Below are positions 8,029 through 46,366 of a DNA stretch of 64,000 nucleotides, one piece after another. The DNA is from Apoderus coryli (taxonomy: Eukaryota; Arthropoda; Insecta; Coleoptera; Attelabidae), in assembly GCA_911728435.2 (NCBI GenBank), contig OU452204.1, positions 14,942,001-15,006,000 on the forward strand, written 5' to 3'. The translations under genes were made by a program, and so were the position numbers. Under the pieces are notes generated by a model, which had not been told where the DNA came from, made no database searches, and saw only the letters and a program-made list of their open reading frames with translations. Position 1 is the stretch's first letter; every line of letters begins with the position of its first letter.

Positions 8029-8071
8029 TCTCGACGCGCGTTTCGCTAACAATGTTAGCATCCTCAGGAGA
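8029..8071 (-). ncRNA. hammerhead ribozyme motif (left arm)
   Basis: This is the exact mirror copy of the plus-strand motif at 8093-8135: CTGAGGA, a 6-bp stem II, GAAA, the palindromic stem III ACGCGCGT, and a predicted GTC cleavage triplet. Confidence 0.7.
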
Positions 8072-8092
8072 GAATTAAAACTGTTTTAATTC

Positions 8093-8135
8093 TCTCCTGA
8101 GGATGCTAACATTGTTAGCGAAACGCGCGTCGAGA
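8093..8135 (+). ncRNA. hammerhead ribozyme motif (right arm)
   Basis: The core CTGAGGA (8097-8103) fits the hammerhead CUGANGA box. One extra T (8104) precedes stem II, GCTAAC/GTTAGC with a 3-nt loop (8105-8119). GAA (8120-8122) follows, then the self-complementary stem III ACGCGCGT (8123-8130) and C8131, giving a GUC cleavage triplet. Stem I is TCTC (8093-8096) paired with GAGA (8132-8135) and may extend across an internal loop. The short palindromic stem III is the form reported for Penelope-type hammerheads, which are thought to act as dimers. Confidence 0.75.
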
Positions 8136-8194
8136 TTTAAAAGAAGTGTTTTGGTGAAGTGGTAAAACGATTGTCAGTTTAGTAATTCTATAAT

Positions 8195-8699
8195 GGTAAT
8201 GCAAATGCAATTTGTTGAAAATCCATATAAATAATAAATTAATTTCATAAAAATGAAAGCAGTAACGTGTACAATTAATTTCAGTTGAATGGCCACCACA
8301 GAATTTCATTAAAATATAAAACTCACATATGTAGCCATAGACGTAGCAATTAGTAGTTTTTTTTGATCGGTAAATCCAGGGTTAATACCTTAGGAGTGTC
8401 CGAAGACAGTACCAAGATACGTAGTACCTAATCCAAATCTAATCTAGTGTTAAATTCTCGATTTTGTTGATGTTCGAGGTTTCTACGTACGAGAAGTCGA
8501 GATAATAATTTTTTTACGGAACGCCGGGTGTGGACTGCTTGGTTCGCGTAAAAGATCACTTTCCCGCACGCGGTGCGCTAATTTTTTCTATAAGTCAACA
8601 AAGCGGTTTCAAACTGTCAAAGGCGTTGAAGTACTTATGCCTTTTTAGAATCTTTGTAGTATCAAAGCAAATAAATAACATTTTCTACAGTTGTACCGG
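8195..8699 (-). other. robo intron sequence, no recognised element
   Basis: The left part resumes the pre-insertion sequence of the snapback element. Nothing else was recognised. Confidence 0.45.
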
Positions 8700-8715
8700 A
8701 AATATGCAAATATGC

Positions 8716-8803
8716 GAAAACCAAGTTCAGTAGGTTTCTACTGAACTTGGTTGGGTTGGGATTCCATGTCTTGTTTGCACAATATATTAGACATGGAATC
8801 CCA
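8716..8803. repeat. two consecutive perfect hairpins
   Basis: The first hairpin has AACCAAGTTCAGTAG facing its complement across a 4-nt loop (about 8719-8752). The second has GGGATTCCATGTCT facing AGACATGGAATCCC across about 19 nt (about 8758-8803). The two lie back to back. They are shorter than usual animal miRNA precursors, and I see no coding context. Confidence 0.7.
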
Positions 8804-8890
8804 CTCAACTCCTGATTAGCCCTCAAGTTTAGCGATTGCAACCCCCCACACTCAATCTGCGTTTAGTTGGTCTTCTTGAGCAGTGTTTCT

Positions 8891-9013
8891 ATACTATATA
8901 GAGTCTATTGGCATCCAAAACAGCAACGACTCCATCTTCCAGCATCCCCTTAAACAACGAAATGGCAGCATCTGCAATTACGTACTCTTCAAAACGTTTC
9001 CACTGTTCTTTTG
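8891..9013 (-). pseudogene. unrecognised coding fragment (41 codons)
   Basis: The minus strand from about 9013 reads TKEQWKRFEEYVIADAAISL then FKGMLEDGVVAVLDANRLYIV and a stop. The stretch is richer in G/C and codon-like than its AT-rich surroundings, and the composition looks like a folded helical protein. I do not recognise the family. It may be a relic of a retrocopy or transposon protein, or an unpredicted exon. Confidence 0.35.
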
Positions 9014-9200
9014 TAATAAATATTAATAATTAAGATTTAAATTGTTACTTTCTATAAAAAATTTATTAAGTTATGTTCTTGTTGCAGTTTTATCAAGTTT
9101 TGATAAACATAAATATTTATACAAAGAAAGAAAATATTCACTTAAAGTGAGTGAACTTGTCGTTGAATAATTTCTATATATATTATATAAAGCAAATGCC

Positions 9201-9240
9201 CTGAAAGCGTGAGAAGTGGGTTCGATTCCCACCTGAAGCG
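9201..9240 (+). repeat. tRNA-like T-arm / B-box (SINE or tRNA relic)
   Basis: GTGGG TTCGATT CCCAC (9216-9232) forms a perfect 5-bp T-stem with a 7-nt loop and contains a consensus pol III B box (GGTTCGATTCC). No acceptor stem, D-arm or A box is found at the right distance upstream, so this is not a complete tRNA. It is most likely the 3' part of a truncated tRNA or the head of a tRNA-derived SINE. Confidence 0.6.
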
Positions 9241-11334
9241 AATGTTTTTTCCAACTTACAGACGTTCGTTTTCTTCATTGGTTTTTCTATAAATATTTAT
9301 TTTTAGTTGCTTGAAATCTTATATGGTACATTAGATAGCAATTTGTAGTAACTAATGACTATCTAACTCCAGAATACCCAATCGTATCCGACCTCCAACT
9401 GGAAATCAAGGCTATAGATAGCCTATAAATTGCTCAGAGCTAGTGAAACAAAACTTTTGTTTTAGTAGCACAATTAGTTTATTTTACTTTGTTATATATA
9501 TTTTTTACTCCTTAGGAAAATATAATGTGTGTCTTAACTCTTTTGCTATTTTTTAATAGAATATTATATTATTGTGTATTAATGCAAAATAAGATACCGA
9601 TGTTTCAAAATACTAAAAATTACGAGCTTTCCTAGAGCGACAGTCGGTATTATTTTTAAAACAAAAAGTGAAAAATCTGTTATTAATACCCACAAGTGGC
9701 AATGCTGCCCATTTCTTAGCGAGAGTTCAGCCGGTGACAAATAATTGTAATAATTCCGATATAGCAATAAATATATAATTTATATGCATTGTTTTGTATA
9801 TATTATGAGTGGTTAAAAAACTTAATTATTTCGACTTCACCGAATCACAAAAAAGTGTCTTTCAATATTGATCTTTTGTTAGTTGTCGTTAGTTTTTGTA
9901 AAATATTAGTGAATAGAATTAAACTTAAGTACCTCCCTGATTTAATAGCGCAACTAAATTTAAAGCATCCCCACAAGATTTTTTTGGGGTCTTTATATTA
10001 AAATGAAGAAAAATCACACTATAAAACTATACTTATTGCATCTATATAGATATAGGTACATATACAGCTTTATATCAATCAATATTAAAAAATAAAAACA
10101 CTAAATAGACTTATTTTGCACAACAGAATAAAAAAATAAATACAGGAACATCAAAAATAAAACTTAACAAAAGAAAACTTAGATATAAAGAAATAATAAT
10201 AAATAAACTTTTTCTGTGCAACATAATAAAAATAGGATTTAAAAAAATGTATAAGCACAAAAAGTAATGTAAATGTAGCGCTGCTCCTGCCCTGATTCAT
10301 TTAATATGTTGATTAACAACCTGAATTCTGAAATCTGATCTGTCTCAATTCAACATAGTCTATGTATTTATCTTAGATTTTGTAGAAATTATCTTTTAAA
10401 ACACAATTTATGAGGCAGACTGTGAAAGTGGAACCAAACTTATGAATATATTAAGTGGTTAGGCTGTATATCAAATTAAATTAAGTACTTATATGTAATG
10501 GATGTGGAGGAATATCCTGACAGTGTCAAGCATTGGGAATTGAATTTTTAATGCCCAAATAAAATTTGATAAATTTTATGTTAATTTCAGAAGCATAACA
10601 TTGTTTAGTATTTTAAACACAACACAACATGTTTAAGTCTTCTGAAATTTATTTGAATATTTCAAGAAGTAGAATGCAGGCAGTATTCCTCATTTTTACA
10701 AAACAATCTAAACTGGATATATCAACTAAAACGTTTCAGGTACATCAGTGGCATAAACTGAATAGAAATCTAATAAACTTGGCCTCACTATTCAATGTCA
10801 TAATTCCTAATTAACTAAAAGGTCCTCAAATTTATACTAACTAACATTTCGTTGACTATCCTGTCTGCTTCTTCAGAGTAATTTTGTTGTTACGTTTATG
10901 ACCATATGTGCGTGTGTCCGAAACTCTGCACATTATTAGTTTTTATTGATTTTGAAACGGGCGAAATAAACTGGTTAATTTTCTCGTTAGCGGGCGTTAT
11001 TAAAGCGTTATATGAACAAAATAATGATTTTGATTATTATTTTGTTTTCGGTTATTTTACTTGAAATGTATGTTAAACTATATGTATGGAAATACCAATT
11101 TAATGCCATATTTTGTTTTGTAATTATATTACACGCATGTAAACATGTCTGTATTGATAATAGTGGTTCCTGCTTGTCAATTCCATTTTTTAATAACATT
11201 GTTTTCATTATTATTTGTAAACAACATTATCATTAAATCAAAATTAACTCTATGTATTTTACAATCCTATATTTAATATCCTGCATATGTTGCTATTTTT
11301 ATTAACCACTGTAATATAATAATTTTCCCTTATA
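9241..11334 (-). other. robo intron sequence, no recognised element
   Basis: Very AT-rich, with an A-rich stretch near 10080-10260. No coding or structured element was seen. Confidence 0.5.
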
Positions 11335-13556
11335 CAGGGTGATTCATTATGGTTGCAACAAACGAAAACTGGAGATTGCTGAAAGTGATTTAAGCATTTT
11401 TTGCCATCGAACCCATGTCCGCAAATGCTTCGTTCTCGAGATACAGGTTGTCCAAATTTAGTAGTCAAATTAACTTTCTTGTTCATTTCTCAAAAACTAG
11501 CTAACCGATTTCGACAAAATTTTGCATGCATTTGGGAACCGATAACCTAAAATAATCTGCATTATTTTGGCTTTCATCAACTGTTCATTGGGGTAGATAT
11601 AGGGGGCATTTGGGTAAATTTTACACATTAATTAATTAAAGACAGCTTTGACAAGCTTCATTATTTTAAATTATTACTCTTTTAAAAAGAGCAACTTATA
11701 AGCTACAAAAAAGTTAATTACGTGGATGTTGTGATTTGTACCATTTTTATGGAAACCGATAATTTATTTATTTATTTAACTTGCAATTTGCAAGTTAATG
11801 ATAGATTTAAATCAAAATAACGTTTACCAGAAAACCAAATGAAAAATCAAAGTTGCCGTGGAAAACGAATGCCGCAACTAAAAAAAAACTTTGACAGCAT
11901 CAAATTTAAATTAGTTAAAATTGATTTATTATTTCGTAGTTGTTTTTAATATTGCGAATGTTTTTTTCTAAATTAAAATGAGTTTTTCAATTGAAGAATA
12001 TGTTTGTGTAATGCAAATGCAAGAGCAGCGGCCAGAGAATACCAAATTAGGTATCCTAATGTAAGTCATCCATATCACAAAACATGGATGGCTACATTTC
12101 ACAGGCTTAGAACGATAGGGACCATTTTACCTAGAGTTAACAAACGACCGCATCGTCTAAATATTCAAACTAAAGAAAACATAGTGGGTTTAGTTTTAGA
12201 CGATCCGAAAATAAGCACTAGAAGAATACCAACTCAATTGGCGTTACCTCGAACAACTGTTTGGAGACTATTAAATCGAGAAATGCTCTATCTCTATCAT
12301 CATCAAGATGTCCAGGCCCTACATCCTGGAGACCGTGAAAGGCGCCTACTATTTTGTAATTTGGTTCTTGGTAAGCATCAAGAAGATGAAAGATTTTTAG
12401 AGAAAGTGCTCCGGTCAGGTGAAGCAAGTTTTACTAGAGCTGGCATAAATACAAACCATAATGAACATGTATAGTCTTTAAACAACCCTCGTGCTATTAG
12501 GACGCGAAATTTTCAAACACGTTTTAGTATCAATGTTTGGGGTGGCATATTTAACAATAAATTATTGTTGTTGTTCGTAATTAATGGACATTTAAACTAA
12601 AATCGATACAGTCTTTTCCTACACAACCGCCTACCCGAATTTATTGAGGATGTACCTCTGAATATTGTTCAAAACATGTGGTATCAACATGACGGTGCCC
12701 CTACGCACCGTGGTAGACAAGTAACTAAAGTTTTAAATCAACTGTTTGGAAACAATTTTATTGGTTTGGGAGGTTCCATTGAGTGGCCTCCAAGATCACC
12801 GGATCTGAATCCGCTCGACTTCTTTTTATGGGGGTACATGAAACAATTGGTTTACAGTGTACCAATTATAAATGAAAACCAACTACTGGAGATAGTTCAT
12901 GAAGCTGCTAGGAAAATAAGAAACAATCATAATATCCTTATTGGAGCTACAAATTCATTAGTTGAAAGATGTAAAATGTGCATTACTGTCAATGGAGGGC
13001 AGTTTGAACAGTTGTTATTAATTTTCTTATTTTAATTTCGAGTTTAGTTTTTTTATTGTTAAATTTTTAATTGTACTGATAGGCCTTAACATTTGTTGTT
13101 AAGTAATTTCTTATCTTATCGATTTCCACGGCAACTTTGATTTCTCATTATCATTTCTGATAAACGTTATTTTGATTTAAATCTACCATTAACTTGCAAT
13201 TTATCCGTTTCCATAAATATGGTAGAAACCACAACATCCACGTAATTAACTTTTTTGTAGCTTATAAGTTGCTCTTTTTAAAAAAGTAATAATTTAAAAT
13301 AATGAAGCTTGTCAAAGCTGTGTTTAACTAGTTTATGTGTAAAATTTATCCAAATGCCCCCTATATCTACGCCAATGAACAGTGAGTGAAAGCCAAAATA
13401 ATTCAGAATATTTTAGGTTATCTGTCCTCAAATGCATGTACAATTTTGTCAAAATCGGTTAGCTAGTTTTTGAGAAATTAACAAAAAAGTTAATTTGACC
13501 ACTAAATTGGGACACCCTGTATCTCGATAACGAAGCATTTGCGGACATGGGTTTAA
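11335..13556 (+). mobile_element. DNA transposon with TIRs of about 450 bp (DUF4817/Tc1-mariner-type transposase)
   Basis: The left terminus is CAGGGTGATTC after TATA (11331-11334). Long inverted repeats run from about 11410-11864 on the left to about 13123-13555 on the right. Shared blocks include the CCGCAAATGCTTCGTT segment, GTTAATTACGTGGATGTTGTG and the GTTGCCGTGGAAA inner edge. The right repeat lacks the outermost 75 bp present on the left, so the element is truncated on the right. It encloses a broken transposase gene on the plus strand. TIRs this long are unusual for the superfamily. Confidence 0.85.
11978..13035 (+). pseudogene. DUF4817-type DDE transposase, inactivated
   Basis: Cut-and-paste transposase of the Tc1/mariner-related group common in insects. 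The reading frame starts MSFSIEEYVCV at 11978, then shifts frame near 12000 into NARAAAREYQIRYPN, the DUF4817 helix-turn-helix. The next helix block ends near LPRTTVWRLL. The first catalytic block reads RSGEASF where the family has FSDEA, so the first Asp is Gly. A stop at 12472-12474 and others follow. The third-frame C-terminus (12676-13035) keeps WYQHDGAPTHRG (second Asp) and SPDLNPLDFFLWG (third acidic region). Frameshift, stops and loss of a catalytic residue show it is inactive. Confidence 0.85.
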
Positions 13557-13689
13557 TGTAGGCATACAATCTATCCTAATTTCAATTCTTCTAGTCAATA
13601 TTTTGAGTATACTTTTTGTTTTATTTTTAAGAAAACACGCTTAAAACAGAATGACGAATAACATTTACAAAAAAAATCATACAAATCCA

Positions 13690-13905
13690 AATTAATTTTG
13701 AAATGCCTTTAAGAATTTCTTTGCCTTTAATTTAAATGTATTTAGACTATATGAATGAAACTCAATTGGTAACAGATTATACAACTTTACTCCGATATAC
13801 ATAAAACATTTTGTAAAATTCGTTCCTTGAGGAATCCCCAACGACGCTGTGTTAAGATTTGATCTGAATAATTCAACGAATTCAAAGCCATTCAGCTTTT
13901 TATTT
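13690..13905 (-). pseudogene. internally deleted LINE remnant
   Basis: One open minus-strand frame joins a reverse transcriptase block B (LNTASLGIPQGTNF) directly to what looks like the extreme C-terminus of such a protein (FMYIGVKLYNLLPIEF...KKFLKAFQN, stop). The catalytic FADD block and thumb are missing between them. The joint is in frame, so this is a clean internal deletion rather than decay. Confidence 0.6.
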
Positions 13906-15240
13906 ATTTAATATGTTATATGAATATGAAACTTTTACAAATTTATAACACCAAACGAAACAATAAATCGAAATTAAACTTGACAGTGTTCCTGTGCCAA
14001 AATTTACCGTGAAAGTGAAAAGTTTTTAACAGGAAACTTTTTCATGTTTAAACATAACTCCCAATAATACACTCACTTTCCATTTGTATTGAACTTGACA
14101 TTCTCTCTCTGTGTGTGGAGCAAATAAAATTTTAAATTCAATAAGGAAACTTTATACACAATTCACAAAATGTATATACATACAGTAAGTGAGAGTTTGG
14201 CTTTTCGACAGAAAAAGGCGCCAGACTCGTTATTAGGGCCAGCGGCGCACACGAAAAAAAAATCCTCAAACTTATACAATTTTTTCACTGAAAAATGCTA
14301 AATAAAACATCGCGTCTGTTCAGATGTAATACCGGAAGCAGGTGTCAAATTTCAGCACTGAGTGCGGTAAAGTCCAACTTTCCGCACTAAAAAACTTCGG
14401 AAAAGGACAATTTACCGAAAACTCTTAGGAAAAATAACTGGCAGTTTCCTGAACTCTGGGTTGGCTAAATTGGATTCAGTGGCGGCTTGTGGCAGTTTAA
14501 TGTGGTGAAGCATAACAAAAAATAAAGTCATATACTTAATAGGTACCTAAAATTAATAGGGATATCCCTACTTCGTCAACTGCATAAAATATAGGATATG
14601 TTTATAAGTAGGTACCTCACCTAAGTATTGTTTTCTTGAAAACCTTAATTAAAGTGTAATTAGTATCTAGAATACATTTACCTACTTCATAATAATACTA
14701 AATAAAACACATTTTATTCCCGAAAAGTAAATAAAAATAATATTAGCATTTAGCACAGCACTCGAAATTTGCGACTGTGTGATAGAGAAAGATATAATCA
14801 AAATAATAATCGACATATAGGTACAAAACACCCGCCAAGCGTTGTCATATAACCTTATTTTACATTAAATCTCTGCTGCATCTATATGAAGCGTGCTTCT
14901 TATAGTGTTTTTTAATGGCAAGATTCGTATGCTATGCTTAGTACAGTTAAACGCTGGCAACTATGTTTAGACGAAGAGCGATAGGTGGTTGTATAGTGGG
15001 TATATGCCAGATGGCAGTGTTGCCCATTTTTGCTGAATTATAGATGAAAATGCTTTGAGGCACGCTTCATCTGCATAAGAACGTGTATGATAAATAAATA
15101 GGCTATTGGTGTGGCAGAGGACACAAGTACTGGGGTGTCAACTGGCACACACAGGGAAGAGAGAGACCTAAATAGATAATGTTATTACACGAATAAAAAA
15201 AGAGAGAAATACCTATAGGTATGTATATTAAGTATTTTTT
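13906..15240 (-). other. robo intron sequence with a weak MITE-like inverted repeat
   Basis: Mostly AT-rich and featureless. ATGAAGCGTGCTTC (14886-14899) and its near-complement (15057-15070) bracket about 185 bp and could be a small MITE. The evidence is weak. Confidence 0.35.
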
Positions 15241-15326
15241 TTATTCTTTTTTTTTTCTTGGGGTGTAAGGTTCTATTTTATTAGCGATTTTTTTTTTCTT
15301 TTGAAATATTTTTATTTCATGTCAAA

Positions 15327-15364
15327 TAGTACAACGTTTCGGCTTATTCGCCTTCTTCAGGTAC
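15327..15364 (-). ncRNA. hammerhead ribozyme motif
   Basis: On the minus strand: CTGAAGA (15360-15354), one extra A, stem II GGC/GCC with a 6-nt loop, GAAAC (15340-15336), then GTTGTA giving a 2-bp stem III and a GUA triplet. The other arm (15506-15529, plus) keeps CTGAAGA and GAAACGTTGTA but lost stem II. Confidence 0.55.
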
Positions 15365-15505
15365 ATCTCTTTTTCTTACCAACATCGCATGATTCTGTAG
15401 ATTTGTTTGAATGAATGAACATTCATTCAAACAAAATACCCACTAAAAGTGGTACATAGCAAAAAATCTACAGAATCATGCGATGTTGGTAAGAAAAGAG
15501 ATATA

Positions 15506-15529
15506 CCTGAAGAAGGTGAAACGTTGTAC
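15506..15529 (+). ncRNA. degenerate hammerhead motif (stem II deleted)
   Basis: The partner-arm copy has CTGAAGAAGG directly followed by TGAAACGTTGTAC. Compared with the left arm, about 9 nt of stem II are gone, so it could not fold into the ribozyme. Confidence 0.5.
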
Positions 15530-15699
15530 TATTTGACATGAAATAAAAATATTTCAAAAGGAAAAAAAATCGCTTATAAAATAGAACCTTACATCCCAAG
15601 AAAAAAAAAATCAAAAAAAATTGTAAACAAGGTTCAAGAAAAATACAATACAAAAATATATTATTTTATGAAATAATCCATTCAAAGGGGAGCGATGAT

Positions 15700-16053
15700 T
15701 ATACACATTAATAATACGACGTCAGCTCCACAAAACAAATATATTTAATTAAACTATAATCGAGATTTGCCATTAAATAATTTTAATCTCGATTATAGTT
15801 TAATTATTATTTGATTTTGAATTCATAAAACAATGTTTTAACTTTGATTTGTATAAAACTTCACAAACATTTTTCACAAAATGAGTATGTTACATTGTGA
15901 AACTAAATAGTTTGTCTTGTATCCAAATGTCACTGATGATGAGAATTATAAATTTCTCGAAACATGTCTGACTGACATAGGCAATTTGCCGTGTGATTTG
16001 ATATATGAATATATTTGTTTTGTGGAGCTGACGTCGTATTATTTATGTGTATA
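15700..16053 (+). mobile_element. TIR element with a hammerhead motif
   Basis: Imperfect inverted termini of about 45 bp (15700-15744 and 16009-16053) share the ACGACGTCAGCTCCACAAAA segment. Inside is a perfect hairpin of about 21 bp per arm (15750-15806) and one plus-strand hammerhead core at 15929-15972. Compared with the other hammerhead-bearing loci, the right end (TTTTGTGGAGCTGACG) resembles the sequence downstream of the 26.1-kb and 32.3-kb motifs. Confidence 0.7.
15929..15972 (+). ncRNA. hammerhead ribozyme motif
   Basis: CTGATGA (15933-15939), one extra T, stem II GAGAA/TTCTC (15941-15958), GAA (15959-15961), palindromic stem III ACATGT (15962-15967) and C15968, giving a GUC cleavage triplet. 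Stem I pairs GTCA (15929-15932) with TGAC (15969-15972). Every core position is present apart from the extra T. Confidence 0.75.
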
Positions 16054-17046
16054 AAATATATTAAGTATGTTAAATAGGTGTATACGATAAAGCCTGCTTC
16101 AGATGAAGACGAAATTCAAAATTACAGTTTTATGGTAAAGCAGGTTGAAAATTAAGTATACATTAATTTATAGTTTCAATTTTATATGGAGAAAAATAAT
16201 TACACAATAAAATAAAATTAAATACTTATATATTATTAATTTTACTGATTATATAGGTTGCTTCATAGGACAAGCCGTCACTGATTGAATTGGTCCAATT
16301 TAGAAAACTATAATTATTTCTTGTGTTTTTGTTTTTAAATGTGGGAATTCTTGTCAATATGAAGTGCTCCAATATTCAAAATACGTTTTTAACATTATAC
16401 AGTGAGTGTCAAATGCGTGGTCCAATATATGCTACCATGTTTGTTTACTTAGTTCCAGAATTTTTTCCAATAATAGAAAAGGTATAAATTATGGTAAATG
16501 GAGATTGGCGAAGCATATCCTTCCTTTTTAAAGTTTTACGTAACTGAAATAAATAAAGTGGTCCATATATTGCACCAGCTTGAAGGGTTTCGGATTATAA
16601 AACTCTTCAACAAAAAATTCTGAGAAAATAACTAAAAGTGCACAACAATATTAAAGTATTTTGTGTACAAATTTGAAAGTGTTTTGATTTGTTTTCTTAA
16701 AGTTAGAGCGCTAAAACCGAAAACTGGTCCAATATAGGCCACCTTCATCTAAGTAGCTACGTCGTAAAATTTACACCGATTTTGTAGTTTGTAGTAGAGT
16801 AACATAAGATAAATAATATGTATAGCTATAATAACCCACGACCGACTTGGAAATCTGTGTGTAAAGAAATTGGAACTTTACGTACATTATCTAGTGGTAG
16901 CCAAAACCTTGATAGTTACTAAAATATGTAATTTTGACCAATATGTAAAATCACGAAACTTTTAATTGAATGTTGTGCCTAATAATATACCCCGAAGCAC
17001 GAAAAACCAATTGAACATGAATTTAAAATTATATGCAGGTACTTAC
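16054..17046 (-). other. robo intron with a spaced GGTCCAATATA-type repeat
   Basis: The string TGGTCCAATATA or close variants occurs at about 16291, 16424, 16558 and 16723, spaced 130-165 bp apart. Copies 2-4 are followed by a CACC/TACC-type tail. No coding block is seen. It may be a decayed tandem repeat. Confidence 0.45.
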
Positions 17047-17178: not shown

Positions 17179-17345
17179 CTGTAAAACATTAAATGAATTA
17201 ACAACCGGATTGTTACATTTACATTTACTTTGCATAATTCCAACAGTTTGAATTCCTGCTGCAAAGTGAATTCCTTGGAAAGGAAAATTACAGCAGTGTC
17301 AGTTTTAACTGGTTTTTTACTATAACGTGTAAATTTAGAACTTAC

Positions 17346-24380: not shown

Positions 24381-25718
24381 TTTAACTTAAATTAAAAAAA
24401 CTTTAACACCTTGTATCCATGAAATGACCCGAGAAATCTATTGCTATAATACGCTTAACTATTTCCGCGTCTTTTCGAAACACCCTGTGTGTGTGAAAAT
24501 TTTCGATATTTGCTTTTTACCCTGTAGTTCTTTTTAATAATGTATCAATTATATCAACTTTGGGGCTAAATATTGTATTATCCACATTTATTGAAGAGTA
24601 GTTTATTTTGTCCATCTGAAAATATCGCGCCTCGCAGATGAATTCTTTTGTAAACCTGCGAACTTTTTTATGTTTTGTATAAAAAAAAATTCTTTTAAAT
24701 ATAAAAAAGAGAAGCGGAATTAATTAATTTTCTTATGGAACTGTATATTAAAGGAAAAAATACAAGACAAAACTTTTAAATTATAGACTAATTATTAAAT
24801 TTAAAAAAGTTGTCGTCTAGAGTAATCTTTATAATATGACTGAGGTTAGAGATATCCACGTGTCATCACCAGTTCCCCGAATGCGTTCAAGGTATTCCGA
24901 TAATGTAACATTCACAACAAATCACAAGTAAATTAGCGAATATATAATAACATTACGAACCACGTTTTAACACCATTAAATCATCTTTCTTTTTCTTCTC
25001 CTATTTAACGTACTCTCTGCTGTTACAAACTTTATTGCGTCCATATGGTGGTGAATATGCAAACGTCATTTCGAAAAGACTTATTTTCTTTCATAAAATA
25101 CCTTACAAACCAACTTTGAGCCTTAAATCAAGCCAAATACACAAATGTGTATTATAAGTTGAGAAATTGGCTTGGAACTTTTGAAATATGGTTCTTCTTT
25201 CATTATTTGCTTACCTATATAGGATTCACAAACACATATGAACATAAAAGTGATATTGGCATCGAACGATTTTAGATTTATAGTTGTTGGTGTGAGTTAT
25301 TTACATTTTTGAAATGCAGTTTATTTTTTCTTTAATATATTATGGTTCAACTTTCATTAAGTTACCTACGTAGATCGTAGATGACGTTTGAGGTAAACAA
25401 CAATATTCTTGAGCTCAGGGACGTACTTACAGCTTACATATACAGTAATGGTGATAATTACTTCATGTATGTAATATAATTCTTTGAAATTCACACATTA
25501 GAATAGGTATAGTGTTTCTAAAGTTAGTTTAAAATGATATAAAAAACAACAACTCGATATCCCTTTGTAATGTCACACTACCATGCTGATTGATCCACAA
25601 CTCATCAGAGGTGATCGGCAGCCAGTCTGACGATTCAGCACGATCAAAAACAGACCATATTAGAGCTGACATTTTCAATTCTTCATGCAAATATATAAAA
25701 ACTAAACAAAAGACTTAC
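24381..25718 (-). other. robo intron sequence, no recognised element
   Basis: AT-rich; no coding block or repeat recognised. Confidence 0.5.
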
Positions 25719-26000
25719 CATGTACAGTCAAAGTAGCAATCGGTGACTCTCTCGATCCCACCAAATTATCAGCTACACATTGGTACCGACCTTCGTCATG
25801 CTGCCTCACATCTGATATCATCAAATTGCCTCCGTCTACAACTCTAATTCGACGTCCATCTACCTCTAGGAGCTCCTCATCTTTTTTCCATACCAGCCTT
25901 GGCTCAGGATGACCTTTTGGTGCTCCACACTGTAGCAATGCTGTCTCACCAGCTGCTACTCGGGTATCTGTCGGGACTACTCGGAACTCGTCTCGGAGAA
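25719..26000 (-). CDS. robo: robo exon: Ig2
   Basis: The acceptor TTTTTTCAG lies above 26000 and the donor GGTAAGT follows 25719. The exon reads [20 protein letters not shown], then the first cysteine ([13 protein letters not shown]), tryptophan ([11 protein letters not shown]) and second cysteine ([18 protein letters not shown]). Length is 2 + 93 codons + 1, matching phase 1 at both sides. Ig2 lies next to Ig1, the main Slit-binding domain, and is the most 5' exon I can identify. Confidence 0.96.
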
Positions 26001-26085
26001 CTGAAAAAATTAAACAGATTTATAAATTTCACTTCATTTGATTTGATAGTATTTTCAGCAGTAATTATTTTATGTTGTTGCCTTT

Positions 26086-26128
26086 TAGGCTGATGATGGA
26101 GTTGAGATTCCGAAACATGTCCCTGTAA
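26086..26128 (+). ncRNA. hammerhead ribozyme motif next to the robo Ig2 exon
   Basis: CTGATGA (26090-26096), one extra T, stem II GGA/TCC with an internal segment (26098-26111), GAA (26112-26114), palindromic stem III ACATGT (26115-26120) and C26121, giving GUC. Stem I pairs AGG (26087-26089) with CCT (26122-26124) plus a GU wobble. It lies about 86 bp from the Ig2 splice acceptor on the opposite strand. I found no clear inverted partner. Confidence 0.65.
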
Positions 26129-26474
26129 TTGTGAAAGAATCAAGTTTTTTTAATAAATTGGTGGAGACGACATTGTAATTCATAAACATTTTATATTTAC
26201 AAACACATGTCGTGTTAAATCATATCTGATTCTATCATCAACGTCTTAAAAATGTTCGAAGTCGTCGAAATGTTTGAACAAGATAAGAGGAATATTCAAC
26301 TGAATGTGTAGATTTACAAATTATAATATTTCTTACTGATATCGATAAAACCGTCAAAATATTTATCCAAATTTATGACATGTACAAATAAATAAAATGC
26401 AGTACGAATGGGTTGAACTTTATTGAATTTTAATACAATATTTTTAGTCTAGGCAATTAAATTCAATTTAGGAA

Positions 26475-29110: not shown

Positions 29111-29430
29111 ATACAGGGTTTAGAATAAAGTATAGCGTCGGATTACATTGAAAATTTAATATGCTTATATTGAGAATATGAATTCTCAAAGCAAGTATAG
29201 AATTAGCTTATATTAAACATTTGGTATGATTATTTTGAGAATAAGAATTCTCAAAGTAAGTATAGAATTAGATTATATTAAACATTCGGTATGATTATTT
29301 TGAGAATATGAATTCTCAAAGTAAGTATAGAATTAGATTATATTAAACATTTGGTATGACCATTTTGAGAATATGAGCTCATACAGGCTTTAGATTAAAG
29401 TATAGCATCTGATCATATTGAGAATATACG
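29111..29430. repeat. 65-bp tandem repeat, about 3-4 copies
   Basis: The block GAGAATATGAATTCTCAAAG starts at 29172, 29237, 29302 and (partly) 29367, exactly 65 bp apart. Units differ at only a few positions. Each contains a small palindrome, TTTGAGAAT...ATTCTCAAA. The flanks carry a further diverged pair, CATACAGG(G/C)TTTAGA, at about 29111 and 29382. Related GAGAATAT strings occur just upstream near 28941-28975. Confidence 0.88.
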
Positions 29431-30705: not shown

Positions 30706-30729
30706 AACACACAATAATATATTTTGATT

Positions 30730-31090: not shown

Positions 31091-31800
31091 AATAATTCTT
31101 AGTTGTAATAGTTTTGTATATAACTAAAGCTAAGGTGTAATAACCAAATTAGATTATGTTTGCTAAATACTTCTATTAGTTGTTTTCACACTATTAAAAT
31201 AACAAATTGTCCTCAAACAACAAATAACTTTATGGATACCACTAGCAAAATATGGAGAATCGAATTAATATTGTATGGTTGCAGCAAAATAAATATACCT
31301 ATTTACCTTCTTACATTGTCTTTATAAAAACAATGCTTCTTATTATCACTTAGGGCAACACTGTGCAATATGCTTCATTGGAGAATATAGAGTGCGACCG
31401 AATCTCAGATCAAGGTCAAAATGAAATGACGAATTTTTGAAATGAAAATATTTTATATTTGAATCAAATTTATGGCATATTCAATTTGAGTATACGAATA
31501 TCCTTATTATAAGCTGCTGTGGTCTTATTTAAAGAACACTGAATATTTAATATAAGAAACCATACATTCTTAAATCAAGGAGGTGGGTCATTTAAACAGA
31601 GTATGTTTGAATGTTCTAATGAAAACTATTTATTTAAAGTGAACATTTTTGTTGAATATATGGAAATCTACATTTAAGCATTTCAAAATTTTCAATTTAA
31701 AATATTTTACTTCGAATGAGAATAAAAAGTCTTAGAACAAGTCAAAAAAAATAAGAATATTGAAATGTTTAATTTGAGTATTTGCTTTTTTCTGTGTATG
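31091..31800. other. no recognised element
   Basis: AT-rich; nothing recognised. Confidence 0.5.
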
Positions 31801-31823
31801 AATAGAACGCTGTCTTGCGGTAT

Positions 31824-31866
31824 TCCGCAACTGAAGAGACGAATTGAAGTCGAAACAGTAGAATTA
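31824..31866 (+). ncRNA. hammerhead ribozyme motif (left arm)
   Basis: CTGAAGA (31831-31837), stem II GAC/GTC (38-40, 49-51) with no extra base, GAA, then ACAGTA (31855-31860) giving a minimal stem III and a GUA triplet. Stem I is poor, with no immediate pairing across the junction. Confidence 0.5.
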
Positions 31867-31929
31867 TTGTCTTCTCTAACAGAAAGTGCAAAACTTTGAC
31901 TGGTTAGATATTACTAGTTAGTGTGTAGA

Positions 31930-31972
31930 AAATTCTACTGTTTCGACTTCAATTCGTCTCTTCAGTTGCGGA
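31930..31972 (-). ncRNA. hammerhead ribozyme motif (right arm)
   Basis: Inverted copy of the 31824-31866 motif with the same core and stem II, and the same doubtful stem I. Confidence 0.5.
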
Positions 31973-32322
31973 ATACGGCAAGACAGCGTTTTATTCTTCA
32001 CGCCAAGTAAAAAAAAAATAATCAAATCAACTTTGCATTCCAATAATTGAAGATAATTCGGAGTTTTGCGAGTTTTTCGAAGGATAACTTATGAATAAAT
32101 ATTTCGTACGTGTTCAGAGTTGGACTATTTTGATAAATAATTTTCAATTAAGATACTAAAAAGCACCCTAAAATTATTGAAACCATTACAAGCGAGACAC
32201 CCCCTAGAATAAATTGGTTTCAAAATGTGTATTAAAATATAATTTTGAACAAGTACTCCATAATAGTAAAGGAGGGAAATGGTAGTCAAGAATCCACAGA
32301 ATAAACACATTTTAATCAAATA

Positions 32323-32544: not shown

Positions 32545-34009
32545 AGCACGCCATCGACTCTAAGCAGCATGGTTTCTTCCAGGGACGATCCACAGTCACT
32601 AATCTAACGTGTTTTTTTCAGGACGTGTTTTACGCTGTCGGTGGAGGCATGCAACTGGATGCTATTTACACCGACTTTTCGAAAGCGTTCGATAAACTTG
32701 ATCACTCCCTGAGTCTGCAGAAGATGTGCAATATTGGCTTTGATGAGGATCTCCTGGTGTTTTTTTATACTTACCTTACTAATCGTAAACAGTTCGTTGA
32801 ATACAATGGACATAGGTCTGATTATTTCATACCCACCCGTGGTGCCCCACAGGGCAGTTGTCTTGCTCCCCTTATTTTCTCCATTTTCATTAATGATGTC
32901 GGAAGGCTTTTTGAGCAGTTACTTGATTTTTGCAGATGACTTCAAGATTTACAGAGCTGTTCGATCTCTTGCTGATTGTGAATTGTTGCAGGCTGATCTG
33001 TCGAGGCTCGAGCTGTGGTGCCATACTAACAAACGGCCTTTCAATGTGAGAAAATGCAAACTTGCTGTATTCTCCAGGTGGCAGAGCACACATATGTTTC
33101 CCTACCGGTTATGTAATACCATTCTTGACTCGTGTGAGGTCGTCAGGGATTTGGGAGTCTATGTAGACACCAACTTACAATTTACAGCACATACACAGCA
33201 CCTACTATGTGACTCTTTTCGTATGCTTGGTTTTTTGTTTCGAATAACTAAAGAATTTAACAACGTTGTGTCTGACCAATTTGTTCAATCAGATCTAAGC
33301 TTGAGTATGGTTCCAATATATGGTCTCCCATATATCAAGTACATATAAGACAGGTTGAGAGTGTTCAGCGTAGATTTCTCAAGTACTTAGCGTTCAACAT
33401 TGATGGGCATTTTCCGTCGCGCGGATATGATCATCGCATGCTCCTTGACAGATTTAACATGAACTCTTTGGCTACACATAGATTATATGCTGGACAGGTG
33501 TTCCTCTTTAAAATAATTAATGGTATGATTGACTCAGCTGCTGGAGCGGATTGGTTTCAACATTCCACCGTTTTTTTCCAGAAACGCTAGGTTATTCCAT
33601 ATCCATACACTTCGTACCAACTATGAGTATAGGGCACCTCTGTTTAGAGCATTACAAGAGTGCAATGACGGGGGATCAGCAGTGAGGTCGATTACTTTGA
33701 TCAAACACTACTTGGGTTTAGGGCCCAGTTGTCTCGCCTCCTATATCGTTCCGAAGATTAGCTTACTGTGAGATCTTATTTATTATATACGCATATTCTT
33801 TTCCTAAATTAATTTCGATGTCATTAGTTTTAACTCAATAATGTTTATGTTTCCTATCTTAGTATGGGTAACAGTTTTTAGTGTTATTGTTTCTTAGATA
33901 ATGTAAAGTAATTACCTAAATATGTACAATAATTTTTAAGAGTTTGCCTTGTAATTGGGTGTTAAACCTGTTAGGCAAGAAATGAATAAATAAATAAATA
34001 AATATTTAA
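32545..34009 (+). pseudogene. LINE A2: reverse transcriptase and 3' end
   Basis: A 5'-truncated copy, inverted relative to A1 at 1559-2770. It reads FFQGRSTVTNLTCFFQDV, block A AIYTDFSKAFDKLDHSL, block B TRGAPQGSCLAPLIFSIF. After a frameshift comes the intact catalytic block FADDFKIYRAVRSLAD, then DLGVYVDTNLQFTAHTQ and FRITKEFNNV, a second frameshift, and the C-terminal tail. The 3' end is CCTGTTAGGCAAGAAATGAA plus (TAAA)n to 34009. Both catalytic Asp residues survive but two frameshifts inactivate it. It shows where the A family's missing upstream part lies relative to A1. Confidence 0.88.
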
Positions 34010-37227: not shown

Positions 37228-37260
37228 AAAGTAAATCCTTCGCTTGATGATGAATTAGAC

Positions 37261-37500: not shown

Positions 37501-37589
37501 AGTCTAGAATTAGCCTAAAAAATTAAGAAGGAGCTTGTAGGAAAAACATTTTAGGAATTACGAAAATCAATAACTGATGTTATAATATA

Positions 37590-40800: not shown

Positions 40801-41500
40801 ATCTACTACCTTTCTTCTGACATGACTTCGGCCAATTATTGATCAAAACGTATTCTATATCCATGCAAACATAATAACATTCCCTACAAACTCTGCAAAA
40901 GCTTTGTGCCATTATTGGAATTTTACTGGCATTGTCTCCCTTCAACCAAATTATTACCTTTGTGTAGTTAAGAAGACATTTACTATAGGAGGATATGGGG
41001 AAGTGTAATATTTGAGTTTCCGGTTTTAATTACTGTTTCCGTCTAGGTTTCTACACACACACTCAGAATATTAAAACATACTGAGTGTAGTAAATAAGCT
41101 AAATGGAAAATAGTAGAAATATAATTATTGTGAATTTCGTGTCCAAATATTTAGCGGGATTATCTTCATTTGAGGCCAATTTCTACATCAACAAAAGACC
41201 AATCCAACCCAAACAAATTATTGTTTCCTTTTAGTAAACTACCTTAATTTTTATCTCAAATCAAGATTTACCTGAGCTATTTTTCGAAGAGATATAAAAA
41301 ATCCAAAGAACAATATAATTGATAAGAGATCTTTTCAAATTAATATACAGTGTGTCCACTTAAGTTCGCACCATATTATTGACTTTACGAAAACATATAT
41401 TATATTTGTTTGTTTTTTTAGAAATAATTTGTGTTGTTATATTTTTAACTTTTTAATTTGTATTGATATAATTTTGAACTTTCTTGTTATGAACTATAGG
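37869..41500. other. no recognised element
   Basis: About 3.6 kb of AT-rich DNA. AGGGTGTTCCTATTAGAAC at 38886 looks like a lone transposon terminus, but I found no partner. Nothing else was recognised. Confidence 0.45.
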
Positions 41501-41504
41501 CAAT

Positions 41505-41890
41505 TTCTGACGTATACAGTGTCATCATCATCATCTCGAGGTTATACTGCCCACTGTTGAACAAAAAAGCCTCGCTCAAATTTTGCCACGCATTTCGATT
41601 TTGTGCAGATTGGATCCAGTTTCCTGCCACCCGTTTTATGTTATCTGTACATCATGTGGGTGGTCTGCCTCTATTTCTAAAAGCTTCGTCGCCATTCTAT
41701 AATCTTTTTCGCCCATCTATACTATCCCTCATTCTGACCACGTGGCCTGCCCAGTTCCATTTCAGATGTAGAATAGTCTCAACGCGAAGACGTCTTGCAC
41801 TCCTGTTCTGTTTCGTATGGATCGATTAGGGATTTCATCAGAAAGTCTAATTCCTAGCATTGCTCTTTCCTATTTTCGTTGCATCACCTT
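41505..41890 (-). pseudogene. RTE-type LINE 3' end
   Basis: The minus strand translates in broken frames to WAGHVVR, GRPP, AGNWIQSAQNRNAW and EAFLFNSGQYNLEMMMM. This is the standard C-terminus of RTE-clade reverse transcriptase proteins (WAGHVARM...W...A.DR..W..L.EAF.QQW), followed by the ATGATGATGATG tail at 41521-41535. Only the last 350 bp or so remain. Confidence 0.75.
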
Positions 41891-41998
41891 TATTTTGTGA
41901 GCATTTTTATAAATTTATTGTTTCCAATTTTTATATTTTATATTTTCTATATATTCTCTATCTAGATTTTTTGAAACTTTATGACGTGTGTAAACATT

Positions 41999-42150
41999 TT
42001 TTTTATTCAAATTAACCTTTAAAGTGTGGTAACCGGTTTCGGCTTACAAGCCATCATCAGACCTCAGAACGCTTACTATCCGTATCACAGGTCAGTTAAA
42101 TCCCTCATCTCAAATGAGACCACACTTTAAAGGTTAATTTGAATAAAAAA
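41999..42150 (-). mobile_element. small TIR element with hammerhead motif
   Basis: Perfect inverted repeats of at least 27 bp at 42004-42030 and 42119-42145 (TATTCAAATTAACCTTTAAA... and complement) enclose 88 bp holding one minus-strand hammerhead core. The predicted cleavage site lies exactly at the inner edge of the left repeat. Confidence 0.75.
42025..42064 (-). ncRNA. hammerhead ribozyme motif
   Basis: Minus strand: CTGATGA (42060-42054), extra T, stem II GGCT/AGCC with a 4-nt loop, GAA, palindromic ACCGGT (42037-42032), then T42031 (GUU triplet). Stem I pairs GGT (42063-42061) with ACC (42030-42028). Confidence 0.65.
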
Positions 42151-42375
42151 TATTTTATGTGGCGTATGTTTTAGTTGTATTTTGGTTTAAGAGGAAATGC
42201 CACTTCGAAAAATCCTCAACTCTACGAAAACAGAGTTCAAGTCGGTGAAGGATATCTCAAAATCAAAACAAGTGTAAAATATGCAATTACATACATTTAC
42301 ATATTCAACGCAGTGTAACGTTTACTTTTGGTAAGGCTTCTTTGCAGGGAAACATTTTGAAAATGGCTCCCAAAT
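42151..42375. other. between two hammerhead loci, nothing recognised
   Basis: AT-rich. It may be part of the element that carries the 42376-42419 motif, but I cannot define ends. Confidence 0.4.
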
Positions 42376-42419
42376 CGTCAGACATGTTTCGAGGCTCTCA
42401 AGTCTCATCATCAGTGACA
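42376..42419 (-). ncRNA. hammerhead ribozyme motif
   Basis: Minus strand: CTGATGA (42414-42408), extra T, stem II GAG-CT/AG-CTC with one internal mismatch, GAA, palindromic ACATGT (42387-42382) and C42381 (GUC). Stem I pairs GTCA with TGAC, the same 4 bp as the 15929-15972 copy, so the two are close relatives. Confidence 0.65.
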
Positions 42420-44047
42420 AAAAAAAACGTTCCATTATATACAAGCATTTTGTGAAGAAAAATTTTCTTACATAAAAACAAGATTCTTCTAATTGGCTAT
42501 CATTACTATGGTTATAAAATAATATTTTACCACAATGATGTTATGGGTTTTTTGCTTTTTCTTTTTTATCATTACGAAACTAAATATTTGTTGAAAACTT
42601 CTTAAAAAAGATTTTTGCCAGTTCATTATGTGTTGCGTGGAGAATTTTAAAATATGAATCTTAAAGTTCTCTATTGGTCGCTTATATTAATAATAATATT
42701 TGCTATAATCTAGATGATGTTTTAAATTTAAAACTGTTTTATAATTTGGATCCCGTTAAGCTTGTAAAATGCAATATATTTTCCATTAAAAAAAATTTCC
42801 AACCAGAAATCAGTGACCCTTAGATTATGTAGATAAAATATATTATACAAACAGGTGAGGCATTTTTATAAATAAATAATAAATCCAGGTTAAGATTACG
42901 TCAACAAGACCAATGCTCGTAGTCTTCACCACAAAAATATACTATAAAAATAAAAAAAATAAATATACCTACTTACCTTATCTCAAATATTGGCAGAATG
43001 CAGGCGAGCAACCAAATAAATAAGAATCCCCTTGTATTATGTTCACATCAGAGCCGTGTGTGCTCTTTAAACGGGAACTTAAAGCTCTTAAATCCATTAA
43101 AAAATATTGAAGGTTGTAAAAATACGAGGGGCTGGTAAAAGAGCATTTTTTATTATGTTTATTTCTTAACGTAGAGGGTTGGCAGCGAGTGTGCCTCTCG
43201 ATATTTTATCATCTCGCACTTCAACGACTGGATTTAAGGAGATTTAAGTGTTTTAAAAATAAATAATATTTTCGTTGAATTCGAAAAATAAATATTATAA
43301 AAGATAATGCATACAGAGGGTTAGTTAAATGTTATGGAAGAAATCCAGCGATCTGTTTGTCGCTTTTATTTTGTTTAGAACTTTATTAATCTGTTAAAAA
43401 TCTGGTACTTTTTTAGTCAGTACAAATTTAATTTACAAAAAGCTACCACAGTTAAAATAATAGACAGTTAGTTCTCTTCGTGTCGGTGCGTCTGATATAC
43501 ATGGGTACATGAGTCGATGCCGTTTTCAGCGTCAAGTCAATCTTCTTGTCTATAGTTAATAGTCGATGCCTTTACTGCAGTAAAGAGAGAGTTTGGGGGT
43601 ACCTATATCTGCTTTTTTCCATTCTTTATGTTTTTTGGGGCACTGACTCCGAATCCGAGGTTTGACAAAAAAATTTCGTGACGCAAGATTGAAAAAAATA
43701 CAAAAAAAAACTCAAAAAAGGTAATTTTGGCCGTGTTTTGCTTAAATCTGAAAAACTATGAGCTACATCTTTAATTTTTTTATTGTAGGACGAACCGTTT
43801 GGGCTCAAGCTTTGGTATAAAAGACTTTGGTATAAAAGACGGAATAAGCCTTTGTTCCAACAAGTAGGTTAAGTAATTTGAGATTTCCTGAGACTTGACT
43901 GACCTGGAACTCGTATGTCAAAATCTTCAAAGAAGCGGCAGATATACCACACCTGATCGATTGGTTTAAAGTCGATTTCACTTAGATCTTAGCTAATTTG
44001 GGGACTATTAGACTTGACTCACTGAGAACAAATCCATAAAAAGTATC
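42420..44047. other. no recognised element
   Basis: AT-rich. A 17-bp direct duplication (CTTTGGTATAAAAGA) lies at 43809-43841. Nothing else was recognised. Confidence 0.45.
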
Positions 44048-44258
44048 TAAGGAAAGGCAGATAAATCCCTGATACTCTGATGGTATAATCAGCAGGGTAT
44101 ACCATCATTCGATGCTGGCATATAAAATTCCAAATTAAGCAACTTCTTCATTGGAATTTTATATGCCAGCATCGAATGATGGTATACCCTGCTGATTATA
44201 CCATCAGAGTATCAGGGATTTATCTGCCTTTCCTTATCCAAATTAAGCAACTTCTTCA
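44048..44258. repeat. perfect 86-bp inverted duplication with a 22-bp direct repeat
   Basis: Arms 44048-44133 and 44151-44236 are exact reverse complements over 86 bp, with a 17-nt loop. The loop and arm edge, TCCAAATTAAGCAACTTCTT (44129-44150), are repeated directly after the right arm (44237-44258). This fits an inverted copy inserted by replication template switching rather than a transposon. There is no hammerhead core in it. Confidence 0.9.
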
Positions 44259-44374
44259 CTGTCCAAGGACAGTAATCTTAGGTCACGTGAATGCTGATAA
44301 GATCTTCTTTCTTTGCATATCATGACCCTAAATATGTGTAAAAGGTTAAGACCAGGGTTTAAATAGTTAAATTA

Positions 44375-45485
44375 TAGCGCCAAGGGCACTGCGGATGCCA
44401 TATTTTCTTTTCTTGAGAATGTTAATTCCCAACTCAATAATGAGCAGTTGACGGAGTATTTTGCAACTTTTCCAAGGCATTTGATTGTGTAGATCACAGC
44501 AACTCTTCTCAGGAAGCTTGAGTTTTATGATGTTATGGGTGTGCCTTTAGACTGGTTTCGTTCTTATTTGACTGACCAGAGGCAAATGATCAAGTGTGGG
44601 AGTAGTATTTCTGAGAGTATGTGTGTGCCTTGCGGAGTACCGCAGGGGTCTGTTTTGGGTCCTATTCTTTTTCTTCTTTATATTAACGACATTAGCACTA
44701 TTAGACTCACAGGAAGCTTTACGTTATTTGCAGCTGCTACGATACTCCTTTGGCATGATAAAGATGCTGATGCTGTCAAAGAAATCATTCGAAATGATTT
44801 GGGAAATATGAAGGAATGGTATGATTCGAATTATTTCTCATTTAATTATTTATCAAAAACACATAATATATTATCTTTTAATTTTAAATTTGATGATATG
44901 CTATTTGAAAATAACCCTATTAATAGTCCTAATTGTGTTAAATTTTTGGACTCCAAATTGATTTAAAGCTTAAGTTACTGCTAAAAGTTAAAAGTTTCAT
45001 CTGGGTGTTATGCTTCCAGAGTTGTATCAGGGGCTTTTGGTCTGAAAGTTGCAGGAAATGTGTATTTTTCTGTAGTGTTTAAGCGTATATTTACACTGCA
45101 GAAGTGAGCTGTTCGTTATATGTGTAAAGCAGATTTTACTGTAAGTCGTAGAGAATTATTCAAAAAACACCGAATATTGACTCTTACATCACTTTTCATT
45201 TTAGAACTAATATTTTTTTGTTCTGTTATTTGCATATTTATTGGGGTATCTTATTGTCTTGTTATTTACATATTTTACTTTGTGCATGTTTGGTGGATTT
45301 GTAATTTTATTCTTTGCCTTCCTACTAAGTTCGACAACATAATGTAGAGTAGCATTCCTGGTTTACGTATGTATTTTAAAATATTTTTGTGATATTGTAT
45401 TTGTATACGCCTTTATTATATATTATTTTAAATATGCCTTTGTCTACAAGAACTTTTGTAATTGTTTTATGACAATAAAGTTATA
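44375..45485 (+). pseudogene. LINE D: reverse transcriptase and 3' UTR
   Basis: Upstream blocks (DAIFSFLENVNSQLNNEQ, then a frameshifted FSKAFDCVDH) lead into a 143-codon frame with VPLDWFRSYLTDQRQ and block B CGVPQGSVLGPILFLLYINDI. At the catalytic site it reads FTLFAAATILLW where the family has FADDT, so both catalytic Asp residues are lost. The 3' end is TTTATGACAATAAAGTTATA at about 45465-45485. This family is distinct from A-C. Confidence 0.82.
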
Positions 45486-46147
45486 TTTAAAAACATATTT
45501 TCAAAAAAAAGCAATATTTTATAATGTGTCTGAGAGATTTGCGGTAATCTTTCTTCGGATCTAGGCATATACAACTAATAAATCCATACTTATTATTTGC
45601 CTTGTTATAATGGATAATCACCTCCTGCTCCGATGAAATAGGAAGCAAACAATTCCACAAAATAAATTCTCACATTACCCTCGTTACAAAGTAGCGAAGA
45701 ACAAAATACGCGATGCTATTAGCAAAGATTAATCTACACAATAGATAGTCAGCCCAATGCATTAAAATGAGAACATCTCTAAGTATGCCAGCCACTACGT
45801 GGCGTAGACTAGCGTGTAAAGCATAGAGCAGTATTGTCACAGCCAGAAACCGTTTTGTAGTTTATTAATATCAGAAACAAAACGCAACGTATAACAATTA
45901 TTTACATCATTTGCAACAGTTATGCACCGACAATGCTGTATTGTCAGAGAGAGAGATTGATGAAATTCTGTATTAATCTGGAGGGGATACGTAGGGAGGG
46001 TAGAAAAAAAAACAAGCGAATGTGGTGTGTGTCGTGCTGTTGCCGATTCGTCGGTAAAAGAAACACACAGGGTGATTTATTACAAGTACAGTATTGAAAT
46101 AAAAGCCTTATCTCTATGAATTAAATTTAATATAATAATATTTAATC

Positions 46148-46194
46148 CATGTCATACATGTTTCAAGACTAGACCAGTCCCATGATCAGTGGCG
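46148..46194 (-). ncRNA. degenerate hammerhead motif (left arm)
   Basis: Minus strand: CTGATCA (core G replaced by C), stem II GACT/AGTC, GAAAC, palindromic ACATGT and a GUA triplet. Stem I is only about 2 bp. Probably inactive. Confidence 0.45.
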
Positions 46195-46322
46195 AACAAT
46201 CATTAAATGAAAAGCTTTTAGATAGAAACATACTTCTGGCTCCATTGTAATAATTTGTTGATGTATATAAAAAAATCTAAATATCTAAAAGCTAAAAGCT
46301 TTTGATTTAATTATTGCTCGCC

Positions 46323-46366
46323 ACTGTTTATGGGACTGGTCTAGTCTTGAAACATGTTGTATGGCA
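46323..46366 (+). ncRNA. degenerate hammerhead motif (right arm)
   Basis: The partner copy has the core eroded to CTGTTTA, while stem II GACT/AGTC, GAAAC and ACATGT are kept. Confidence 0.4.

Follow-up and report, generated by a model that had tools for sequence, protein, structure and literature searches.

Minimal type I hammerheads, which do without helix III, are carried by Penelope elements (PMC6155905, PMC7761336; here and below, statements from the literature follow the available parts of the cited papers). Thousands of such motifs, mostly dispersed in non-coding animal DNA, are reported in PMC7761336, where their role is given as unknown and only some of them were mapped to the pseudo-long terminal repeats (pLTRs) of Penelope. 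We analyzed an AT-rich stretch of 64 kb from the beetle Apoderus coryli (contig OU452204.1, positions 14,942,001 to 15,006,000), which we call the window. The window contains real hammerhead motifs. Most of those of type I probably sit in bare pLTR pairs of Penelope-like retroelements that were inserted in trans.

The anatomy of Penelope has been described in some detail. According to PMC3846280, its pLTRs form inverted pairs, mostly head-to-head, with palindromes at the junctions; one pLTR has an optional 31-bp tail, and the duplications are 8-10 bp long. Solo pLTRs exist, and pLTRs mobilise unrelated cargo in trans (PMC3846280). A Penelope protein cuts and extends both target strands and favours AT-rich sites, and complementary DNA (cDNA) is initiated at two internal sites, which mark the limits of the tail (PMC11167929). 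In the hammerhead of the element studied in PMC11167929, C3 and G8 come before the start codon, and 26 bp separate this codon from the cut downstream of it. Type I is the usual animal form of the hammerhead, and type III is the main plant form (PMC7229834).

Hammerhead motifs in the window

The pattern CTGANGA-N(4-34)-GAAA occurs 13 times in the window, with 4.57 occurrences expected and with 13 or more in none of 100 shuffles. Nine of these motifs, at seven loci, are complete hammerheads in which stems I, II and III are all paired. Their CTGANGA begins at 8067, 15360, 31965, 42060 and 42414 on the minus strand and at 8097, 15933, 26090 and 31831 on the plus strand. In 150 dinucleotide shuffles the mean number of complete motifs per window was 0.02 and the maximum was one. 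A chance origin is thus rejected both by the shuffle test of stem-paired motifs and by that of the sequence pattern.

The other four matches (5.0, 10.8, 15.5 and 41.8 kb) fail the stem requirement. Those at 5.0, 10.8 and 41.8 kb were rejected because full stems are absent; a covariance model gives 10834-10880 a score of 15.4 bits (expectation value, E, of 0.16). A relaxed type I scan with one core mismatch permitted found no extra locus in the window. Of the 13 positions listed in a preliminary description of this DNA, nine correspond to complete motifs, whereas those at 15.5, 32.3, 46.2 and 46.3 kb are decayed or incomplete. In particular, the one at 32.3 kb is a weak match of the covariance model (11.9 bits, E 1.2), and the core of the one at 46.3 kb is broken (two runs of the sequence profile gave E 1.8-2.9).

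Six of the seven loci are of type I, and the locus at 31.8 kb is of type III. Stem III of the type I motifs is a palindrome of 4 to 8 nt (ACGT, ACATGT, ACCGGT, ACGCGCGT), as had been proposed from the first inspection. It is too short for a normal hairpin and could pair across two molecules. Between CUGANGA and stem II there is a single base in each of the six type I loci and none in the type III locus. In five of the six type I loci an AUG begins at the last A of CUGANGA (offset 6); the exception is the locus at 15.3 kb, which has none. The reading frame opened by this AUG ends after 10-28 codons in the five loci (20 codons at 8.0 kb). The predicted cut follows the first base of the AUG by 24 nt at 42.0 kb, 26 nt at 26.1 kb, 28 nt at 42.4 kb, 29 nt at 8.0 kb and 30 nt at 15.9 kb.

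The covariation claimed in the preliminary description shows up as strong compensatory differences between the loci (97.9% of cells paired vs 64.9% after shuffling; score 0.925 vs 0.175), but the count is circular in part, because pairing was the criterion for picking the loci. With one locus left out at a time, a sequence-only profile recovers the omitted locus in four of six trials (E 6e-4 to 0.027), while the loci at 8.0 and 15.3 kb, when omitted, are absent among the 14 profile rows listed. The pattern CTGATGATG-N(6-24)-CGAAACATGTC matches three loci of the window and has no match in 100 shuffles. The covariance model finds seven type I copies with E of at most 5.4e-7, but all of them are its training loci, and the two copies at 8.0 kb are alike; the next match, 15503-15530, has E 0.08. 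Neither of two hammerhead patterns had a match in viral contigs.

Inverted repeats that carry the hammerheads

Self-comparison of the window and a census of inverted repeats place complete hammerheads in five inverted repeats (E1, E2, E3, E4 and E6) and decayed ones in a sixth (E5). Five of the seven hammerhead loci, four of the six type I loci among them, lie inside 12 short inverted repeats that cover 5.1% of the window. This set comprises the 13 census rows with more than 40 bits and a span of at most 800 bp, minus one nested in E3. The inverted-repeat insertions, two of them with duplications and a one-sided tail, had been overlooked in the preliminary description.

E1 is a complete insertion (7935..8194). 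Its head-to-head arms (7981-8081 and 8083-8183) are complementary at 101 of 101 nt (100%) in the census and are separated by 1 nt. A 14-bp duplication, AGTAATTCTATAAT, is found at 7935-7948 and 8181-8194; two sets of randomised flanks (300 and 200) gave no match of this kind. It touches the end of the right arm, and its left copy lies 32 nt beyond the left arm; these 32 nt (7949-7980) make up a one-sided tail. Each arm has a type I hammerhead with CTGAGGA, the left one at 8028..8071 on the minus strand (CTGAGGA at 8067) and the right one at 8093..8136 on the plus strand (CTGAGGA at 8097, predicted cleavage after 8131).

E3 is the second complete insertion (15653..16063), with 47-nt arms at 15699-15745 and 16008-16054 and an 11-bp duplication, AAAATATATTA, at 15653-15663 and 16053-16063 (p 0.013 and 0.01). 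As in E1, the right copy of the duplication meets its arm, while 35 nt separate the left copy from the left arm; these 35 nt (15664-15698) are the tail. The inverted unit of E3 retains the last 47 nt and the junction palindrome (within 15732-15817) and has no middle part. The type I hammerhead is at 15929..15973 on the plus strand (CTGATGA at 15933, predicted cleavage after 15968).

The duplications enclose 232 nt in E1 and 389 nt in E3, too little for a coding region, and the presence of one inside either element was rejected. Because there is no room for a reverse transcriptase, both elements were likely made in trans. E1 and E3 are at most non-autonomous derivatives and not autonomous members of Penelope; the non-autonomous and likely trans-mobilised nature that was suspected at the outset is supported. 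The reading frame of E1 stops at 20 codons though its arms are still identical, which suggests that its source was already without an intact frame, i.e., non-coding.

E2 (15237..15620) is a head-to-head inverted repeat of greater age, A-rich at its outer ends, with an arm identity of 81%; its left arm has a type I hammerhead at 15328..15364 on the minus strand (CTGAAGA at 15360), the copy in its right arm at 15507 (plus strand) has lost stem II, and no convincing duplication was found in its flank tests. E5 (46091..46429) is an old inverted repeat with an arm identity of 74.6% and decayed hammerhead cores in both arms. Its best remnant (46150-46193, minus strand) has 14.7 bits and E 0.23 with the covariance model, and flank tests revealed no duplication. 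E6 (41993..42156) has 38-nt arms at 41993-42030 and 42119-42156 and a type I hammerhead at 42026..42064 on the minus strand (CTGATGA at 42060). Only the stretch downstream of the hammerhead forms its inverted unit, and the first base of the arm (42030) comes directly after the predicted site of cleavage, with residue 17 at 42031. A candidate 9-bp duplication of E6 is unconvincing (p about 0.12).

The arms of E1, E2, E3 and E5 are oriented head-to-head, with 5' ends inward and 3' ends outward, and are spaced by 1 nt in E1, 50 nt in E2 and 70 nt in E5. This orientation together with a junction palindrome is seen in these four elements and partly in E6; it is not seen in E4, where the 3' ends are inward. 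Arm identity in the self-comparison spans 74.6% (E5) to 99.5% (E1), and therefore the insertions are of different ages. At E 1e-4 the same comparison detected no similarity from one element to another, so they are not a single family, and the view of one dispersed family given in the preliminary description has to be abandoned. Several unrelated Penelope-type families would probably have contributed the insertions.

Two type I hammerheads are solitary: those at 26086..26126 (plus strand) and 42376..42418 (minus strand) have no inverted repeat found around the motif. The palindrome at 44048-44236 was considered as a seventh element and rejected since it has no hammerhead core. It is an 86-nt perfect inverted duplication, with CCAAATTAAGCAACTTCTTCA in its centre and again just to its right, and looks like the result of a template-switch event; it also yields a spurious MIR5649 match in Rfam.

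E4 (31769..32030) differs from the rest in hammerhead type. Its core arms of 66 nt (31800-31865 and 31931-31996) are 97% identical and have a 65-nt spacer. Two type III hammerheads face inward: the left one at 31807..31861 on the plus strand (predicted cleavage after GUC at 31814) and the right one at 31941..31989 on the minus strand (CTGAAGA at 31965), in which stem I has one mismatch. Stem III is CUGU/ACAG, stem I has the loop UAUU, and stem II is GAC/GUC. Neither the type III identity nor the opposite facing of this pair had been recognized earlier. One type III motif was found in 400 random windows, and the real window has one locus with two arms. Scanned alone, as was done for this locus only, 31807-31861 matches RF00008 with 24.3 bits and E 0.0012 (the gathering score is 48.5). 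The hammerhead fold (-13.9 kcal/mol) is slightly less stable than the best fold (-15.1 kcal/mol). A poly-A-like duplication around E4 is unconvincing (p about 0.01). E4 may be a different element and stays outside the Penelope explanation.

Alternative explanations and a possible mechanism

We assign the type I elements to Penelope pLTR derivatives because independent anatomical features agree: inverted arms, tails, duplications and a minimal hammerhead placed at an AUG support the Penelope-related anatomy that had been suspected from the hammerhead-like motifs. A number of observations weigh against this assignment. The association of hammerheads with inverted repeats has p 6.8e-6 in a test that was set up only after the repeats had been seen. 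The solitary loci at 26.1 and 42.4 kb account for two of the six type I loci, and a convincing duplication is present in only two of the six hammerhead-related inverted elements. A search of the whole window against Rfam reported no hammerhead, whether at gathering scores or with E values up to 10 admitted, and the minimum-energy monomer folds of E1 and E6 differ from the hammerhead fold. Among the 50 of 253 window open reading frames (ORFs of at least 55 aa) covered by our protein-domain scans, no Penelope reverse transcriptase or GIY-YIG sequence is linked to the repeats, in agreement with the earlier statement that no GIY-YIG domain is visible. As for the hammerhead itself, core mutants were still inserted in vitro, cleavage depended on the addition of protein, and the cut site was not the end of any RNA read (PMC11167929). 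The coincidence of an arm start with the cleavage site is found in one of the five inverted elements with type I motifs and is absent in E1, E2, E3 and E5. Finally, self-priming on an antisense template is the explanation favoured for inverted junctions in PMC3846280.

The last point leads to the main mechanistic rival, according to which a single cDNA or antisense template primes itself, snaps back and copies itself. We regard it as a possibility to be taken seriously, though not as a probable one. The identical arms and 1-nt spacer of E1 are what such copying would leave, and so is the junction palindrome of E3. A self-copied molecule is harder to reconcile with arms that end at two distinct 3' points, i.e., with the one-sided tail, which looks like the product of two separate starts. 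The two units of E3 are moreover distinguished by a large internal deletion, and extension of both target strands is shown in PMC11167929.

It is unlikely that the elements are miniature inverted-repeat transposable elements (MITEs), mobilised by a transposase and with hammerhead sequence present only by coincidence. Their short, non-coding inverted-repeat form would suit MITEs, the window contains Tc1/mariner relics, and neither a clear duplication nor a clear tail is seen in E4 and E6. A transposase, however, needs inverted repeats that are terminal on both sides, while the duplications of E1 and E3 adjoin just one arm and are separated from the other by 32 or 35 nt; therefore, their inverted repeats are not both terminal. 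The duplication made by Tc1/mariner is a 2-bp TA, from which the 14- and 11-bp duplications differ, as they do from each other. The recurrence of hammerheads in elements otherwise dissimilar in sequence also argues against MITEs.

Even less can be said for animal retrozymes, small hammerhead repeats that spread via circular RNA, and we consider this origin quite improbable. Retrozymes are reported in insects, and type III, present in E4, is the main plant form of the hammerhead (PMC7229834); the elements of the window resemble them in being short, non-coding, AT-rich and hammerhead-bearing. Animal retrozymes carry classical type I motifs and are arranged as tandem repeats, each about 300 bp long (PMC7229834). 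Here Tandem Repeats Finder detected no tandem array of element units except a two-copy 20-bp unit at 15289-15328, the arrangement is inverted, and none of the type I motifs has a normal stem III. It is highly implausible that selection keeps the hammerheads as intronic ribozymes acting on the transcript of a host Roundabout-like gene, since, although its exons are in the window on the minus strand and five of the nine motifs are in the sense of the gene, the mixed orientation, the arm identities of 74.6%-99.5% and the decay of several motifs are as for neutral insertions.

If most type I hammerheads of the window do belong to Penelope-like pLTR pairs, the insertions could have arisen as follows. 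A Penelope protein acting in trans would cleave an AT-rich target on both strands and prime cDNA on each of them. Reverse transcription may start at either of two sites about 30 nt apart, which would make one arm longer and so produce the tail. The palindromic junction would form where the two cDNAs are joined by their 5' ends, and repair would leave the target-site duplication. Stem III of the hammerhead is too short to close by itself, and the ribozyme might act as a dimer and cut longer transcripts to unit-length RNA.

The start of the E6 arm at the predicted cleavage site is a single case that hints at cleaved RNA as a template. Because of it, the positions of junctions across the genome could test hammerhead cleavage in Penelope retrotransposition. 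A much wider claim combines four parts: that dispersed minimal hammerheads of animals are mostly arms of palindromic coding-free pLTR pairs, that they are active in vivo, that the 42.0-kb arm starts at the predicted cleavage site because reverse transcriptase reached the end of a self-cleaved RNA, ran off it and jumped, and that the 31.8-kb pair is an undescribed kind of element. Taken together, this is doubtful, and we put it forward only tentatively. Should the assignment to pLTR pairs be true, the dispersed hammerheads of animals would gain a concrete insertion unit with a duplication, a tail and a junction. In the literature searched, whose coverage was incomplete, we found no account of inverted pLTR pairs that bear hammerheads and are coding-free, and we do not claim that they are unpublished.

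Genomic setting and comparison with known systems

Domain scans of ORFs and a protein search show that a Roundabout-like receptor has exons in the window, on its minus strand. ORFs with Fibronectin III and Ig I-set domains are at 3-455, 6645-7061 and 25705-26019, and the top matches of the last one are Roundabout 2 (E 1.2e-59) and Roundabout 1 (E 1.7e-53). It is therefore probable that the window extends over introns of a robo gene of an insect. The Roundabout-like Ig exon and the solitary hammerhead at 26.1 kb (26070-26130) lie on opposite strands, with about 70 bp between them.

Relics of reverse transcriptase and Tc1/mariner type are scattered through the window. A protein search with the reverse transcriptase at 36 kb gave 194 relatives; the named organisms among at least 120 listed are insects, and one relative among the matches listed is named transposon X-element. 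The Tc1/mariner-like relic at 11405-13558 has very long inverted repeats (about 360-450 nt). A 1.2-kb inverted pair with 90% identity (32762-33997 and 1559-2765) spans a reverse transcriptase fragment. A tandem repeat at 29141-29376 has 3.6 copies of a 65-bp unit with an internal palindrome centred on GAATTC. Another inverted pair, of 38 bp and 97% identity (45716-45753 and 49258-49295), is separated by 3.5 kb and has no obvious element around it.

Among known systems, MITEs are also short non-coding inverted repeats, and they differ from E1 and E3 in the one-sided tail and the 11-14-bp duplications of the latter. Animal and plant retrozymes (PMC7229834, PMC4918200) are likewise non-autonomous retroelements with hammerheads, and the type III motifs of E4 are as in plant retrozymes. 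Unlike retrozymes, which in the parts of these papers considered are tandem or LTR-flanked (long terminal repeat) repeats, the elements here are inverted pairs, and their type I motifs are minimal. The short Penelope elements of heliconiine butterflies (PMC6685494) are likewise short, non-autonomous and from insects; the comparison follows a brief description that includes neither structure nor hammerhead.

The comparison with Penelope itself reveals both differences and similarities. E1 and E3 are without any coding region, no reverse transcriptase or GIY-YIG sequence is linked to the repeats among the ORFs scanned, and the duplications are 14 and 11 bp rather than the 8-10 bp given in PMC3846280. 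On the other hand, head-to-head terminal repeats with junction palindromes are shared with the Adineta vaga families (PMC3846280) and the Anolis element PAc (PMC11167929) as described there. The one-sided tail of 32 or 35 nt is close to the 31 bp of PMC3846280, and the target is AT-rich with a short duplication, as in Penelope (PMC3846280, PMC11167929). The minimal type I hammerhead overlaps an AUG, as it does in Penelope, with the predicted cut 24-30 nt further on, compared with 26 in PMC11167929.

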